Assembly (NCBI RefSeq): GCF_003268005.1
Contig: NZ_CP014213.1
Coordinates: forward strand, 1,364,001-1,428,000
DNA: 64,000 bases
Source of the DNA: Methanosphaera sp. BMS
GTDB lineage: Archaea; Methanobacteriota; Methanobacteria; Methanobacteriales; Methanobacteriaceae
Reading direction: 5' to 3'
Part shown: positions 6,601 to 37,290 of the stretch, piece after piece
Layout of the letters: each line of letters starts with the position of its first letter
How positions within the stretch are numbered: the stretch's first letter is position 1
The notes under the pieces: generated by a model
Database searches by the model: none
Seen by the model: only the letters and a program-made list of their open reading frames with translations
Told to the model about the DNA's origin: nothing
Program-made: the position numbers and the translations under genes

Positions 6601-9600
6601 TTTCAACGTCTACTACGATTATTTCTTCACTTGCTGTTCCAGCGGCACTACTGTTTGTTGCATTGCTTGCTAAGTATAGGTCATTTTCATTGTATGTTAC
6701 AACCACGCTTAACTGTCCATCATGTTCTACAGGTATTGTAATGTTTGCAAGTCCATCCGTTAAGTTTTCGCTTACAAGTTCATTACCGTTCATGTCATAA
6801 ACGGTTATGTTACCCTGTATTACGTTTTCATCGGTTAGATTTGTTACATTTACGCCTATTGTCACATTTCCGACTGTTGTGTTTATGATTGTTACATTTG
6901 TCTTGGTAGGTATCTTACCGACTGTGAAGTTAATTGTTTGACTTGTGGATTCTTCAACAGTGTCATTTCCAAGGTATGTGGCATTTACTGTGTAGTTTGC
7001 TATTTCACTTGGAGTGTATTCAAGAGTGTATTTGGAATCAATTATGTCAACGATTTCTTCGGTTCCGTTTACGTTAACTGATACTTTACCTTCTGTAATG
7101 ACGTTTCCAAGTTCATCTCTTACCTCTCCAGTGATGATTACGCTATCACTGATTATTATGCTATTGTTGTTTACTTCAATAGTTATTGTAGATTTTTGTT
7201 TTACTACGTCAATAACCGTGATGCTTTCTTCACCAGGTGCTGCACTACTGTTTGTAGCGTTGCTTGCATAGTAGTAATCATTTTCCTGATATTCTACTAT
7301 TACATGGAGTGTATCTGTGTTGGATACTGGTATTGTGATGTTAGCTTTACCGTCAGTTAATTTGCCTGTTGCTATGGCTTCACCTGTTGAGTTATCTTTT
7401 ATGATAACTGTTCCTTCGCTTACATAACTAGTTGTCATGTTTGTAACTTCAACGTGTACCGTTACGTTTCCAGCAGTATGGTTTAGTATATCTGCTATTG
7501 TAACTGTAGGCATTTTGGTTACATCTATAACTATTATGTTTTCCTTCTCAGGATCAACAGCTGATTTGTTTGTAGCATTGCTTGAATAGTAGTAGTCATT
7601 TTCCTGATATTCTACTCTTATTTCAAGTTCTCCACCAATTGTTGCAGGTACTGTGATGTTTACACGACCGTTTACAAGTGGTGTTTCATCTACTATGATA
7701 TTGCCATCTGCATCATATACCACTACACTTCCTTTGTCTACAAGACTATCTGTCATATTTGTTACATTTACTCCTATTGTTACATTACCGAGTGTTGTGT
7801 TTAGTATTTCAACATTGGTGATTGTAGGGAGTTTTGTTACGTTTATGACTGTGATATTTTCTTTACCAGGTGCTGCACTACTGTTTGTAGCGTTACTTGC
7901 ATAGTAGATATCGTTTTCTTGATATGTTACTATTACCTCGATTGGTCCGGATGTTGTGGCCGGAATTTGCAAGGTTACATGTGAATCTGTTAGTTCACCG
8001 TTTGCAAGTATTTTACCTGTTGTATCGGTTACTACAACTGAACCAGTTGATACATCTCCATTTGATGTGTTTGTTACGGTTATACCTAGTGTTACATTGT
8101 TGATACTGGTGTTTAGTATTTCAACTGTTGTAATTGTAGGTATTCTCGTTACATCTATGAGTATGATTTCCTCATCAGGTGTTCCGATTGCACTGCTGTT
8201 TGTAGCGTTGCTTTGAGCATAGATGTTGTTTTCATTGTAGGTTACAATTACTCTTAACTGTCCTATGCTGTCTACTGGTATTGTAATGTTAGCTACACCT
8301 TCATGTAATGTGCTTTCATTTAATACTTTTCCAGTTGTATCTTTTACAGTGATTGTACCTTTGTTTACTAATGTTTTTGTAAGGTTAGTTACATTTACAC
8401 TTAATGTTACATTGTTTAATGTTGTGTTAAGTATTTCTACATTTGTAATTGTAGGTATTTTATTTACTGTAAAGGTTAATTCTTCACTCATTGCAGGGGT
8501 CATACTGGCATTACCAAGATATTTGGCTTTGACTATGTAGTTACCTGCAGTTATTCCTGTGTAGGTGAGTGAGTATTTTTCATCGGCTATTTCAACTGTT
8601 TTTTCTGATGTTGTTCCGTCTTCATCGGTAACATATACCGTTACGCTACCTGCTTTGACTACTTCACCCATTCCATCAAATACCTGACCGGTTATGTTTG
8701 TATTTTCTGAGATGATAATTGATGTTTCAGTGAGGTCTATGGTTATAGTTACACTTTGTTTTTGTACATCAATTACTGTGATGTTTTCACGTTCTGGTTC
8801 GGTAGCACTTTCGTTTGTAGCGTTACTTGCAAAGTAAATGTCATTCTGTTGATATTCAACTACTACTTCAATTAATCCGGATTCAAGTACTGAGTCCAGT
8901 TTAATTACGGCATTGCCTTCGTTGATTCTGCCTGTTGCCAGTATTTGTTCATAGTTTGAAGCGTTGTGTATGTATACGTCACCTGTTGTTACGGATTCTC
9001 CTGTCATGTTGGTTACTGTTACATTTAGTGTTACGTTTCCTGCTACATTATCAAGTATTTCTACTGTGGTAATTGTAGGGATTCTTGTAACATCTATAAC
9101 AGTTATGTTTTCTTTGCCAGGTAGTGCCGTGTCATTTAGTGCTGTACTGTTTAGGTATAGGTCGTTTTCAACGTATTTGACAACTACTTCCAATGGACCG
9201 ATTGCTTCTGCAGGAATAAGTATATCTGCTACTCCATCAGTTAGGTTAGCTTTTGCTAATTCATTTGAATCGGTATCGTATACTATTATGCTTCCCTTAG
9301 TTACTAAGTCCTCGGTATTGTTTGTTACGTTTACTCTGATTGTTACATTGGATAGTGTTGTGTTTAATATTTCAACATTTGTTACTGTAGCAATCTTATC
9401 GACTGTAAAGCTGGTTGTATTTTCAACTGCGTCAACTGCACTGTTTCCGGCATATACTACTTTTACGTCTACTGTTCCATTGTATATTGGTGTGTAGACT
9501 ATGGAATATACACCGTCATCATTTGTTTTTGTGATGATGCTTGTACCGTTTACGATTACTTCAACATATGCATCGGCAATAGGATTATTCATTCCATCTG

Positions 9601-12600
9601 TGAGTGTACCGTTTATAGTTACCTCCTGATAAACTATAGCAGCAATAGGTGTTGCATTAACAGTGATTGTAGCATTCTGCAATCCTACCGTAATGTTTTC
9701 AAAGACTTCACCGGAAGCCTTATCAACACCCACACTTGAAGTGTAATTCTCATTTTCAAGATATGTTACACTTACAGCCACATCACCAGCATCAGCAATG
9801 TCAAGTTTAACTGTCGTATTAACACCAGCCACATCAACAGTCACATTCTTACCAGCAACTGTAACGTTAAACTGACCACTAGTTACAACTTCACCACTAC
9901 TGTTGGTAACAACCACATCAATAGTCACATTACCAGCAGTATTATTCAAGACTTCAACAACAGTAGTTGTCGGCATCTTATTAACAGTAAAGTCAACAGT
10001 TTCACTAGTTACACCATCAACCGTAGCATTACCAAGATATGTAGCGTTCACATCATAAACACCAGCAGTGTAAGTTGCATTCTCAACGGTGTAATAACCA
10101 TCACTGATTGTCGCATGAACTGTCTGTCCATCAACAACCACATCAACATTACCTTCGGTTATGAGGTTGCCCATACCATCAAATACCTGACCACGAATAG
10201 TTACAACATCACCCATAATCACACTAGGATTAACAACTTCAATTGTAATTGAAGCTTCCTGTTTAACCAAGTCAATTACGGTTACGTTTTCATATTCAGG
10301 ACTTGCGGCAGATGAATTTGTAGCATTGCTTGCCATGTATACATCATTTTCATTGTAGTGAACAATTACTTCCAATGTATCATCACTAGCCACCGGTATT
10401 GTGATAACTGCTTTACCATCAGTTAATTCTGCAGTTGGTATTGTACTGATTACGTTACCATCTTTGTCAAGTATGTTTACTGATCCATTGTTTACAACAA
10501 CATCAGTCATGTTTGTAACTGTTACTTCAATTGTGACGTTACCTGCGGTATTGTTAAGTATTGAAACACTTGCTTTTGTAGGTATTTTACTTACAGCAAC
10601 GTTTGAATCAGTACTGCTTGCAAGGTATAAGTCATTTTCAACATAGCTAACTGTTATGTCAACAGCTACTGCATCATGAATATCCAATGTAATATCGGCT
10701 ACACCACCAGTAATGTCAGCTTCTCCAAGTATAATACTTGAATCAGATGAGTTATATACGATGACATGACCATCAATTACAAGATCTTCAGTAGTGTTTG
10801 TTACGTTTACTCTGACTGTCACATTGGATAGTGTCGTGTTAATTACTTCAACATTTGTAATTGTAGCAATCTTATCGACTGTAAAGCTGGTTGTATTTTC
10901 AACTGCGTCAACTGTACTGTTTCCGGCATATACAACTTTTACATCTACTGTTCCATTGTATAATGGAAGGTAGACAATTGAATATACACCATCAGCATCA
11001 GTTCTTGTTAGCTCAACAGTATCGTTAACTGTTACTTCAACAACTGCATCAGCGATAGGTTTACCCATACCATCTGTGAGTGTACCGTTTATTGTTACAT
11101 CCTGATATACGATAGCAGCGCTAGGTGTTGCGTTAACAGTGATTGTAGCATTCTGCAATCCTACCGTAATGTTTTCAAGGACTTCACCGGAAGCCTTATC
11201 AACACCCACACTTGAAGTGTAATTCTCATTTTCAAGATATGTTACACTTACAGCCACATCACCAGCATCAGCAATGTCAAGTTTAACTGTCGTATTAGCA
11301 CCAGCCACATCAACAGTCACATTCTTACCAGCAACTGTAATGTTAAACTGACCACTAGTTACAGCTTTACCACTACTGTTGGTTACAACTACATCAATAG
11401 TCACATTACCAGCAGTATTGTTCAAGACTTCAACAACGGTAGTTGTCGGCATCTTGTTAACAGTAAAGTCAACAGTTTGGCTAGTTACACTATCAACCGT
11501 AGCATTACCAAGATATTTAGCGGTTACTTCATATGTACCGGCCGTGTATGTTTGATTGTTGATACTGTAATATCCATCCACAATAGGAGTTGTAATGGTT
11601 ATTTCATCAACAGTAACATTTACATCACCAGTAGTTATGAGGTTGCCCATACCATCAAATACCTGACCACGAATAGTTACAACATCACCCATAATCACAC
11701 TAGAATTAACAACTTCAATTGTAATTGAAGCTTCCTGTTTAACTAAGTCAATTACGGTTACGTTTTCATATTCAGGACTTGTAGCTGATGAGTTTGTAGC
11801 ATTGCTTGGGTAGTAGTGTGTGTTTTCTGTGTATGTTACATTTACGTATAACGTATCTGTATTTTCTGTTGGAATTACAAGTATTGCTTTTCCATTTTCC
11901 ACATTGCCTGTTACGATAGTTCCACTTGCATCGGTTACAACCACTTCACCCATATTTACAGGTTCACCGGTTGCATTTGTTACTGTGACTTCTATTGTAA
12001 CGTTACCAGCTGTGTTGTTAAGGATTCTTACAGTTGTAGTTGTAGGTATTTTATTTACAGTGAATTCTACATTTTCGCTTGTAATGTTACTTACATTTTC
12101 ATTTCCGAGGTATGTAGCGTTGACTGTGTATACTCCTGCAGCTATTGTAACATTTGTTATTGTGTACATTCCATCTTTGAGTTGTGCTTGATATGTTGTA
12201 CTGTTTATTGTTACGTTTACTGTTCCTTCAGCTATTGGTAATCCCATTCCATCGGTTACTGTTCCATATATTGTCACGTCTTCACCAATGACTACTGTGT
12301 CTTTGTTGGTGTTTATTGTGATTGTAGCGTTTTGTTTTGCTACGTCAATGTATGTGATGTTTTCATCGCTAGCACCTGACGGTAGGCTTTCATTTCTGGC
12401 ATTGCTTGATAGGTATATGTCATTTTCATTGTATGTTACGTTTACTCCTATTAGTGTTGGAGTTGTTACATTTAATGTTAGGTCTATACCGCCATTTACC
12501 AGGTCGCCTTCGCCGATGATGTTGCCATTTTGATCATGTACAACTACATGACCTTTTGTTACTGCATCACCGGTAGCGTTTGTTGTGGCAATATGTACCG

Positions 12601-34104: not shown

Positions 34105-37100
34105 ATGAATAAAAAAGTCAACATAACATTAAAAATCATAATGATATTTATATTTCTATCCATCATAATACCAGTATCATTTGCAAATAGCACCGAGACA
34201 TCATACAGTGATGATACACTGCAAAGCCAGATAACCGATGAAAATGTCAGGGATTTGCCAACATTACGAAGTTCTCCCGAATACAAGGACATTTACTTCA
34301 ATGCATCACTGTCACATGATAATGGAAATGGATCACTATCAAACCCTTATAAGAAGTTAACCACCAATAGAATTGAAAGTAATTCAAACATCCATCTAAG
34401 TGACGGCAATTATACCCTTTCAAGTAGAAAAACCATTAATAATGTAACATTTATAGGACAATCCAGACAAAACACAATATTATCCAATATTCTACTTACC
34501 AACAAAGAGTTAATGACGACAATAAATTTGACCTTTAACAATTGCAGCATAACAAATAACAATAACATTACAATGATAAACACGAGTTTTGTTAACTCAA
34601 CATCCAGTACCATCTCAAGTAGCTCCGGAAATATTAATATGGATAACTGTGTATTCATCAACACCGACACCAAAGATAGCTTTTCAATAAGAATACAGAA
34701 TACAAACCTAACAATAAACGACTCATTGCTTGAAAACAATACTGCATACAATGGAGGCTGCATATATTCACTCAATTCCACGATAACAATAACAGATTCA
34801 CTATTGCTAAACAATAGTGCAAGCAGATTCGGTGGGGCCATAACATCACTCAACACAAATCTAAGCATAAAAAATACTACTCTTAAAAATAATAATGCAG
34901 GCTATGATGGAGGAGCCATATATGGATTCTATGGATTATTAAGCCTGATTAATTCAACAATCGAAAACAACAGTGCAACCGAGGGTGGTGCATTAGTAAT
35001 TGATAACATGACAAGTACGGACATATCACAAAATATCTTCCAGGACAATACCGCCAATAGATATACAGACATATATTCAATTACATCCAACATAACAAAT
35101 TCCATATTGGATTCAAATACCTTCAGAAATCTATCCATAAATCCCGAAGATAATGTATACATAATCAGCGTACCCAACATGATTATCGGCAATGAAAACT
35201 ACACGCTATTTAAACTTGAATCGATATACGAAAATATTAGTGATTTACCCAGCAGTTATGATTTAAGGGAGTTAAACCTTGTAACACCGGTAAAAAATCA
35301 GGGAGGTGACGGTAACTGTTGGGCATTTGCAATACTGGCTACCCTTGAATCAAACATATTGAAGGCATCAAATGTTACATATGACTTCTCGGAGGAAAAC
35401 ATGAAAAACATCATGGCATTATACTCCGATTACGGATGGAATATCCCAACCAATACAGGTGGATCCGATACAATGCCACTGGGTTATCTGACAAGCTGGC
35501 TTGGCCCGGTCAATGATGTTGACGATAAATACATGTCAGGACTAGTATTGTCCCCCGTACTTAACAGCATTATGCACGTACAAAACATATTGTTCCTGGA
35601 CAGGAAAAGTTATACCGACAACGATAACATTAAAAAGGCATTGATGACGTACGGATCGGTTGCAGTACGTATAGGATGGTACAATACTTTCGAGAAAGGC
35701 TCATCTTATTACTGCTACAACAGCAAAGACCAGAACCATCTGGTAAGCATTGTCGGATGGGATGACAATTACTCAAGGAACAACTTTAGAAACACAGCAC
35801 CCGGTGATGGTGCATGGATAATAAAAAACAGCTGGGGTACAAATGTGGGTGAAAACGGATATTACTACGTTTCATATTATGATACGACATGTGCAATTAA
35901 TTCATTTGAATACGTCTTTATCCTGAATGATAGCATCCGCTATGACAAAAACTACCAATATGATATACCCGGCACTACAGATTATTTCCTAAGCAGAAAT
36001 GAAAGTGCATGGTACAAGAACATATTCACCGCAACAGATGAGGAATACCTGGAAGCTGTATCCACATACTTCAGAAACAATACCAGCTATGAAATATCAA
36101 TATACGTGAACAATAAACTTGAAGCCATACAGGAGGGAATCACAAATGCAGGATACTACACCATTGACCTTAACCGGAAGATATTATTACAACCCGATGA
36201 CATCTTTGAAGTTGTATTCAAGATAACACAGATAAATGAATCAGCAGTACCTATCTCGGAAAACATATCCCTGAACAAGTTACTCTACAAAGAGAACATA
36301 TCCTTTGTAAGTTATGATGGAGTCAACTGGACGGACTTCTATAATCTAAGATGTGACTATGAAAACAGTCATTCATACTACTCACAGGTTGCTTGTATAA
36401 AAGCCTTTACTACAAAGAAAATTGCAAAGGTTAAACTGGAAATAGAAAACGACAACCCTTGTAATATTGTTGCCAAGATAGTAGACCAGCATGACAATCC
36501 GATAAATACGGGAAACGTGACATTCAATATAGGTGATGATATTGTGAGAGTGGATGTGTGTGATTCACAAGCACAACTTACAAGAATACTGCCAATAGGT
36601 GACCTCACCATAACTGCTACATTCTATTCTGATGAGTATGGTATTGTGACAAATAGTACTGAAATTACCGTATGCAATCCTGAAACTGCCAAGTTATACG
36701 TTGAAGCAACGGTTTCAGACAAACTTAACCTGACTGCTACGCTCTACGGATCAAGTGGAAGAGTATCCAATGGTAAAATAGCATTTAAGGTAAATGGTAA
36801 AACACTTAAAGATGCCAACGGCAAAGTAATTTATGTCAAAGTCGTCGATGGAACTGCAAGCATATTATATGACATTGACGGCACTTGGCTGGAAAATATC
36901 ATTTCAGTAACTGCGGTTTATTCTGGAAGCAGCGTGAATCCATCTGTAAGAAACAATACAACAATATATATTCCAAAAAAGGATTCAAACATTAAACTTA
37001 CCCCCTTTGAGGAAAGTGTAAAAATAGGAAACAATGTCACGTTTAAAGCTACTGTGACTGATGGATATGCTCCTATGACTACCGGTAAGGTAATTTTCAA

Positions 37101-37290
37101 GATAAACGGCAAAACTATTAAGGATGAAAATGGAAAAGTCATCTATGCAATATTAGATTCCAATGGTGAAGTATCAGTTAATTATACAATAACCGGCCTT
37201 AAAGCAAAAAGTTATACAATAACAGCCGTATTCATATCAGATGAATATAAGCGGGCAGAAGATACTGCTAAATTGACGTTGGTAAATTGA
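34105..37290 (+). CDS. Surface protein with beta-helix, C1 (papain-like) peptidase and Ig-like domains
   Basis: 1061 aa with a signal peptide at 1-27 (core IIMIFIFLSIIIPVSF, then AN). Residues about 60-370 are beta-helix repeats (NNTAYNGGCIYS, NNSATEGGALV). Residues about 382-605 form a papain-family domain: Gln399 and Cys405 in VKNQGGDGNCWAFA, His545 in QNHLVSIVGWD and Asn575 in IIKNSWGTN. The oxyanion Gln and Cys/His/Asn triad are complete, so an active cysteine peptidase is predicted. A beta-rich stretch (about 605-770), as often follows C1 domains in surface proteins, and three Ig-like domains end at residue 1061. Two of these match the FKVNGxTLKDANGK module of the minus-strand ALPs. There is no C-terminal membrane helix. 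A GAGG site lies 11 nt before the ATG. It is the only plus-strand gene of the ALP island. Its substrate is unknown; ALP maturation or wall-peptide cleavage is possible. Confidence 0.88.
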   Translation: MNKKVNITLKIIMIFIFLSIIIPVSFANSTETSYSDDTLQSQITDENVRDLPTLRSSPEYKDIYFNASLSHDNGNGSLSNPYKKLTTNRIESNSNIHLSDGNYTLSSRKTINNVTFIGQSRQNTILSNILLTNKELMTTINLTFNNCSITNNNNITMINTSFVNSTSSTISSSSGNINMDNCVFINTDTKDSFSIRIQNTNLTINDSLLENNTAYNGGCIYSLNSTITITDSLLLNNSASRFGGAITSLNTNLSIKNTTLKNNNAGYDGGAIYGFYGLLSLINSTIENNSATEGGALVIDNMTSTDISQNIFQDNTANRYTDIYSITSNITNSILDSNTFRNLSINPEDNVYIISVPNMIIGNENYTLFKLESIYENISDLPSSYDLRELNLVTPVKNQGGDGNCWAFAILATLESNILKASNVTYDFSEENMKNIMALYSDYGWNIPTNTGGSDTMPLGYLTSWLGPVNDVDDKYMSGLVLSPVLNSIMHVQNILFLDRKSYTDNDNIKKALMTYGSVAVRIGWYNTFEKGSSYYCYNSKDQNHLVSIVGWDDNYSRNNFRNTAPGDGAWIIKNSWGTNVGENGYYYVSYYDTTCAINSFEYVFILNDSIRYDKNYQYDIPGTTDYFLSRNESAWYKNIFTATDEEYLEAVSTYFRNNTSYEISIYVNNKLEAIQEGITNAGYYTIDLNRKILLQPDDIFEVVFKITQINESAVPISENISLNKLLYKENISFVSYDGVNWTDFYNLRCDYENSHSYYSQVACIKAFTTKKIAKVKLEIENDNPCNIVAKIVDQHDNPINTGNVTFNIGDDIVRVDVCDSQAQLTRILPIGDLTITATFYSDEYGIVTNSTEITVCNPETAKLYVEATVSDKLNLTATLYGSSGRVSNGKIAFKVNGKTLKDANGKVIYVKVVDGTASILYDIDGTWLENIISVTAVYSGSSVNPSVRNNTTIYIPKKDSNIKLTPFEESVKIGNNVTFKATVTDGYAPMTTGKVIFKINGKTIKDENGKVIYAILDSNGEVSVNYTITGLKAKSYTITAVFISDEYKRAEDTAKLTLVN

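Follow-up and report, generated by a model that had tools for sequence, protein, structure and literature searches.

A gene on the plus strand of the 64,000-nt stretch of DNA analysed here (below, the window) probably encodes a secreted, cell-surface papain-type (C1A) endopeptidase, in which a Cwp84-type pair of domains is carried on an adhesin scaffold and which would cleave surface-accessible proteins; the probability of this reading is put at about 0.7. Gut methanogens possess large adhesin repertoires of unclear purpose and, if the reading is true, a large paralogous set of intact surface proteases within that repertoire, without an inhibitory leader, would make part of the adhesin coat an enzymatic surface.

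Gene and domain organization

The ORF listing and translation of the window give one single ORF of 1061 amino acids at this locus (Table 1), compared with a longest stop-free run of 130 amino acids among 200 shuffles of the stretch. A promoter scan found sites at chance level, using a bacterial consensus that is not applicable to archaea. In a Pfam scan of the protein, Peptidase_C1 (PF00112) was matched over residues 381-601 (E 1e-23), followed by Lectin_like (PF18560) and a Big_3_5 repeat; an NCBIfam scan gave no match. The signal segment has its hydropathy peak at residue 9 and is modelled as a helix at residues 5-18. The full-length AlphaFold2 model (60 alignment rows; pLDDT 86.2, pTM 0.73) consists, in order, of this short helix, a parallel beta-helix, a linker, the peptidase, the lectin-like domain and three Ig-like domains. 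The beta-helix is again obtained when residues 56-380 are modelled alone (pLDDT 87.8); Foldseek relates it weakly to beta-helix lyases and epimerases (best E 2e-4, TM of 0.37 on the query length).

Table 1. Features of the peptidase gene, as positions in the window.
Feature	Position	Strand	Basis
Whole gene, adhesin-scaffold cysteine peptidase, 1061 aa	34105..37290	+	ORF and translation
N-terminal hydrophobic signal segment, ~residues 1-27	34105..34185	+	Hydropathy, model; cleavage site by eye
Right-handed beta-helix, ~residues 61-343	34285..35133	+	AlphaFold2, weak Foldseek matches, kinship with ALP helices
Linker, residues 344-380, at the place of the prosegment in relatives outside Methanobacteriales, itself lacking the motif	35134..35244	+	Motif and profile tests
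Papain-type (C1A) peptidase domain, residues 381-605	35245..35919	+	PF00112; Cwp84 fold match
Gln399, oxyanion-hole residue	35299..35301	+	Alignments
Cys405, nucleophile	35317..35319	+	Alignments
His545, catalytic	35737..35739	+	Alignments
Asn575, catalytic (Ser in Cwp84)	35827..35829	+	Alignments
Lectin_like domain (PF18560), residues 617-769	35953..36411	+	Pfam, E 4e-21; profile and fold matches
Three Ig-like domains, ~residues 786-857, 863-955 and 962-1060	36460..37284	+	Model; Big_3_5 at 969-1052

An earlier note on this DNA had described a C1 domain with an intact Gln/Cys/His/Asn set behind a beta-helix of the type found in adhesin-like proteins (ALPs), and both features are borne out: all four residues are present, and the modelled helix is akin to those of the neighbouring ALPs (∼20-30% identity). 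Overlooked in the note were the lectin-like domain and additional Ig-like domains at about residues 786-955. The protein has the N-terminal membrane or signal segment, the beta-helix and the archaeal Ig-like (Big) repeats by which methanogen ALPs are recognized, and its profile and fold matches, with Gln, Cys, His and Asn in place, put the peptidase in the C1A (papain) family.

The three ALP neighbours are 9873, 2837 and 1678 amino acids long, the largest being a giant adhesin-like protein encoded by the adjoining single ORF at 3653-33274 on the minus strand. The three have in common a terminal domain of ∼130 amino acids (34-82% identity among them), which also ends another C1 protein of the genome (L016). 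The window protein lacks this domain; its last Ig repeat finds its matches mostly among repeats internal to the neighbours and at the ends of other C1 proteins of the genome. The supposed identity of the C-terminal Ig-like module with that of the neighbours therefore holds only loosely: the scaffold is of the same broad kind, its C-terminal module a different one. Antisense overlaps aside, every other ORF of at least 150 amino acids in the interval 3653-54828 is on the minus strand. The gene is accordingly the only one of its orientation in the island, as had been noted, but C1 loci of this kind number 11 in the genome.

A Cwp84-type catalytic module

The best solved relative by sequence is Cwp84 of Clostridioides difficile, found with an E of 1e-35 when the window protein alone served as query and with 3e-58, over both domains, when a profile was used. 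Residues 381-772 of the model superimpose on residues 92-497 of the mature Cwp84 chain (Z 43.0, 2.3 Å over 372 residues, ∼28% identity in the structure alignment), whereas plain papain-type enzymes and cathepsins reach a Z of ∼25 in the fold search and cover the peptidase domain only. Ser92 is the first residue of mature Cwp84 (PMC4089489), and the aligned range starts at that very residue, i.e., at the mature start. By sequence and model, the peptidase and Lectin_like domains together constitute a Cwp84-type module.

The calcium ligands Glu448 and Asn487 of Cwp84 align with Ser718 and Val762 in the window protein, the propeptide and calcium-site numbers being those given in the available passages of PMC4089489, mapped by counting along printed alignments. 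At these places Glu and Asn are each found in 14 of 15 rows from other lineages, taken from among the best 80 of 569 matches, and in 6 and 5, respectively, of the 139 Methanobacteriales rows. Because the two ligands are not conserved in Methanobacteriales, the lectin-like domain may behave differently from that of Cwp84.

Conservation of the active site

Gln, Cys and His are kept in all 70 rows with a letter at the place among 71 module segments from the genus, where Asn occupies its catalytic place in 66 of 70 rows and Asp in the remaining four; the three are among the 12 invariant columns of 404 well-filled ones. Across all lineages, 154 distinct modules retain Gln, Cys and His without exception and Asn in 151, figures with some bias towards conserved residues since the rows were gathered by family profiles or by patterns of conserved stretches. 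These 154 were kept from 165 rows after removal of identical rows and of those with lengths outside 351-599 residues, the latter comprising a split gene, truncated contigs and ORFs with two module matches. Compared with the nearest orthologous module (G005, 89% identical), dN is 0.067 and dS 1.03, giving a dN/dS of ∼0.07 with dS near saturation.

Since Gln, Cys and His are invariant in 154/154 modules and dN/dS is ∼0.07, the window protein is very probably an active peptidase. The same two observations make it highly improbable that it is a pseudo-enzyme serving only as a binding domain, an idea to which the replacement of the catalytic Asn by Asp in 3 of 139 distinct Methanobacteriales modules and the splitting of one C1 copy of the genome might otherwise lend some weight.

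Within the genome, module paralogues are 28-58% identical (nine distinct rows). The residues that line up with the acidic S2 pocket of Cwp84 vary among Methanobacteriales, in a part of the alignment that contains gaps; paralogue differences at these positions would be in line with diversified specificities.

Two near-copies of a C1 protein of 3006 and 3005 amino acids, located at ∼136 kb and 2.53 Mb (L009 2268-11288 and L010 2469-11486), both have Asp at the place of the catalytic Asn. At a further locus (L011), a C1 adhesin gene is split inside the peptidase domain into two ORFs in different frames (6629-9355 and 9388-10788); an intact C1 paralogue lies immediately upstream.

The region ahead of the peptidase

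Relatives outside Methanobacteriales start shortly before the peptidase and carry there a prosegment with the motif APxNPxF followed by GxIPxPVDLS, with some variation. They are represented by 15 rows picked from the best 80 of 569 confirmed stretches, and hence chosen by likeness to the query, from Methanosarcina and Methanosarcinaceae, Methanoregula, Methanoregulaceae, Methanolinea, Acidobacteria, Armatimonadota, Omnitrophota and one entry titled only 'bacterium'. In a profile built from these rows, GxIPxPVDLS aligns with the part of the Cwp84 propeptide that inserts into the active-site groove, where Val66 sits at S2 (PMC4089489).

By pattern, the motif pair was detected in 15/15 of these relatives (among the best 80 of 569 matches) as against 0/137 Methanobacteriales rows, identical stretches having been dropped from both sets; 132 of the 137 have at least 100 residues upstream. 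In leave-one-out profile searches each omitted outside row (13.3-64.5 bits) scored above the best of these 132 upstream regions in the same run, the latter reaching at most 11.5 bits in any run. Columns of at least 70% identity upstream of the mature start number 12 in the outside relatives (12 rows, three of the 15 having been left out for their short N-termini) and three in Methanobacteriales (133 rows). Relocation of the prosegment to the N-terminus or elsewhere was rejected after a whole-frame profile search, in which nothing outside the 15 training rows (lowest 32.7 bits) scored above 9.9 bits. The upstream regions of Methanobacteriales match instead the Chlam_PMP repeat, mostly beta-helix, in 56 of the 72 rows scanned with Pfam (from 80, six being too short and two duplicated or containing unknown residues). 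Ig-like sequence precedes some of the genome's own modules, and the upstream regions of four loci in a different Methanobacteriales genus have the same look. An unrooted FastTree phylogeny separates the 139 Methanobacteriales rows from the 15 others with a branch support of 100 and, having no root, does not distinguish gain from loss.

A search for chagasin-type inhibitors (I42) found none in the genome. I42 is present in 6 of the 67 C1-bearing genomes (missing from 61), compared with 3 of the 27 without C1, or 9 of the 94 of the order, and a trans-acting I42 inhibitor replacing the prosegment was rejected as I42 presence is unrelated to that of C1.

The linker block 361-370 has a mean pLDDT of 83 in the full model, and the corresponding region is below 50 when the N-terminal part is modelled alone. 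As it is confident in the former and disordered in the latter, the linker may pack on the catalytic module, and the absence of the known prosegment may leave room for other groove blockers, such as this linker. A more far-reaching joint reading for gut Methanobacteriales holds that the prosegment and the calcium site were lost once, that fusion to an adhesin scaffold was followed by growth to as many as 20 paralogues per genome, and that the beta-helix or Ig unit in the prosegment's place gates or steers the active site such that cutting depends on what the helix binds; taken as a whole, this is speculative and rather unlikely.

Copy number and distribution

The genome (2.87 Mb, one contig) contains 12 PF00112 matches by profile search, ten in intact frames including that of the window and two in the halves of the split gene. 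These correspond to 11 C1 loci (ten intact, one split), several of them outside ALP islands. PF18560 is matched 11 times, each beside a C1 match. PF00112 is found in 20/20 genomes searched in the genus, and both families occur in the same 67 of 94 Methanobacteriales genomes, in 5 of 17 genera, the module being absent from the other 27 genomes and 12 genera in these profile searches. In the order as a whole there are 421 PF00112 and 405 PF18560 matches, with a per-genome rank correlation of 0.996. One ORF of 2480 amino acids in Methanobrevibacter sp. RGIG2750 (L100) carries two complete C1 and lectin-like modules, and one C1 match (G059:C108:10012-10674) has a single TGA inside its frame. At another locus (L015) a C1 protein is directly followed by tandem near-copy ORFs of 292 and 296 amino acids (9013-9891 and 10135-11025), with a common N-terminus that is zinc-ribbon-like by eye. 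Among the best 80 of 569 matches, the module with its catalytic residues is also found in Methanosarcina, Methanoregula, Methanolinea, Acidobacteria, Armatimonadota and Omnitrophota.

Proposed mechanism and likely substrates

In the reading preferred here, the beta-helix and Ig repeats would keep the enzyme at a distance from the envelope or display it on vesicles. Cys405, activated by His545 and Asn575 and with Gln399 in the oxyanion hole, would cut ordinary peptide bonds in proteins accessible at the surface, and the lectin-like domain would form part of the wall of the cleft. Activation probably takes place without removal of a classical propeptide, because the groove segment is missing and the scaffold is in its place. 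The likeliest substrates would be proteins of the archaeal surface (ALPs, in cis or in trans) or proteins on attached cells. For Methanobrevibacter smithii ALI and M. intestini, an increase of a 'peptidase_C1' protein with adhesin-like domains has been reported in vesicles (PMC12134236); this protein presumably belongs to the family of the window protein, and the report is in line with a surface or vesicle location of the latter.

It is possible, though less likely than not, that the peptidase is a sheddase or maturase which trims ALPs, itself included, and so releases or activates adhesins, comparable to the processing of SlpA by Cwp84; ALP trimming was one of the roles considered in the earlier note, whereas the cross-linking of ALPs, also raised there, finds no support here. 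The catalytic module is that of an enzyme known to process a surface protein (PMC4089489), the C1 protein of the vesicles was increased alongside ALPs (PMC12134236), and C1 copy number follows Ig-repeat abundance with a Spearman coefficient of 0.85 over 94 genomes and 0.76 over the 67 with C1, Big_3_5 abundance being taken as first-look candidates per genome, with at most 49 scored in each. This correlation may, however, merely reflect the fact that C1 proteins are ALPs themselves. Moreover, five repeat-rich genomes (G024, G026, G031, G033 and G034; 67-221 Big_3_5 candidates) have neither a C1 nor a Lectin_like match, so that a C1 peptidase is no general need of ALPs, and the case for a general role in ALP maturation is weakened.

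Somewhat unlikely, yet worth considering, is a predatory or nutritional function, in which proteins on attached bacteria, protozoa, feed or host mucus would be digested and the paralogues would represent a range of specificities. As many as 20 C1 copies are found in a Methanobacteriales genome, whereas according to a survey a single C1A peptidase is usual in prokaryotes, with up to three on occasion (PMC10380794), and the paralogue divergence and variable S2-aligned positions described above accompany constant catalytic residues; variation in surface loops would, however, be expected also without selection for substrate.

Pseudomurein peptides are a less likely substrate. The Methanobacteriales are an order walled by pseudomurein, and a predicted surface peptidase might cut the cross-linking peptides of the cell's own wall, a role also put forward in the earlier note. 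Such a role is nevertheless improbable. Among the best 80 of 569 matches, the module has its catalytic residues in Methanosarcina, Methanoregula, Methanolinea, Acidobacteria, Armatimonadota and Omnitrophota, none of which is known to have pseudomurein, and it is missing from the 27 Methanobacteriales genomes and 12 genera mentioned. The known pseudomurein endopeptidases belong to another family, C71, and the cross-links are isopeptide bonds, which are not usual substrates of C1A enzymes. Neither a C71 domain nor a pseudomurein-binding repeat was found in the Pfam scan of the window protein; a C71 search of the genome gave no match but, as the control likewise had none, carries no weight. Turnover of pseudomurein was suggested in 2010 for several Methanobrevibacter ruminantium ALPs with PF00112 (PMC2812497). 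As the defining substrate, pseudomurein was rejected as the most likely candidate on the grounds of distribution.

Comparison with known systems

Papain-domain methanogen adhesins are a kind already known. In addition to the M. ruminantium proteins, one PF00112 ALP each is tabulated for M. smithii and Methanosphaera stadtmanae, and a lectin-like domain is named among the rare ALP domains (PMC11532034, Table 2 for the former). Like the window protein, these combine adhesin-like sequence with PF00112; the passages available from the published accounts do not mention a Cwp84-type module, a missing prosegment or the range of copy number. In the main texts of the open-licence literature, no report was seen of a lost prosegment in Cwp84-type/lectin-like peptidases of methanogen adhesins. 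Within the literature so covered, the recognition of a complete Cwp84-type module, the substitution of the prosegment and the extent of the expansion seem to be new. A single catalytic Cys together with a prosegment-bearing outgroup offers clean tests of how methanogens act on neighbours, vesicles and their own coat.

The secreted C1A and lectin-like peptidases of Methanosarcina, Methanoregula, Acidobacteria and Omnitrophota have the same module and catalytic residues as the window protein but, unlike it, a short N-terminus with a conserved prosegment. Their C1 domain begins 62-185 residues into the stop-to-stop frame, and there is therefore no room for a beta-helix of the size found here.

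Cwp84 (PDB 4ci7 and 4d59) likewise has a C1A peptidase followed by a lectin-like domain, in the same order and relative place, with Gln, Cys and His in common and its conserved Gln338 corresponding to Gln618; it is a surface protein, as the window protein is predicted to be from its signal segment. The two differ at the fourth catalytic place, where Cwp84 has Ser instead of Asn575, and in the prosegment of the Cwp84 type, which is missing here (motif absent, profile at noise level). They also differ in what surrounds the module: Cwp84 bears C-terminal cell-wall-binding repeats, whereas the window protein has Ig repeats there, of which the Pfam scan matched one and in which it detected no cell-wall-binding repeat, and a beta-helix stands in front of its peptidase.
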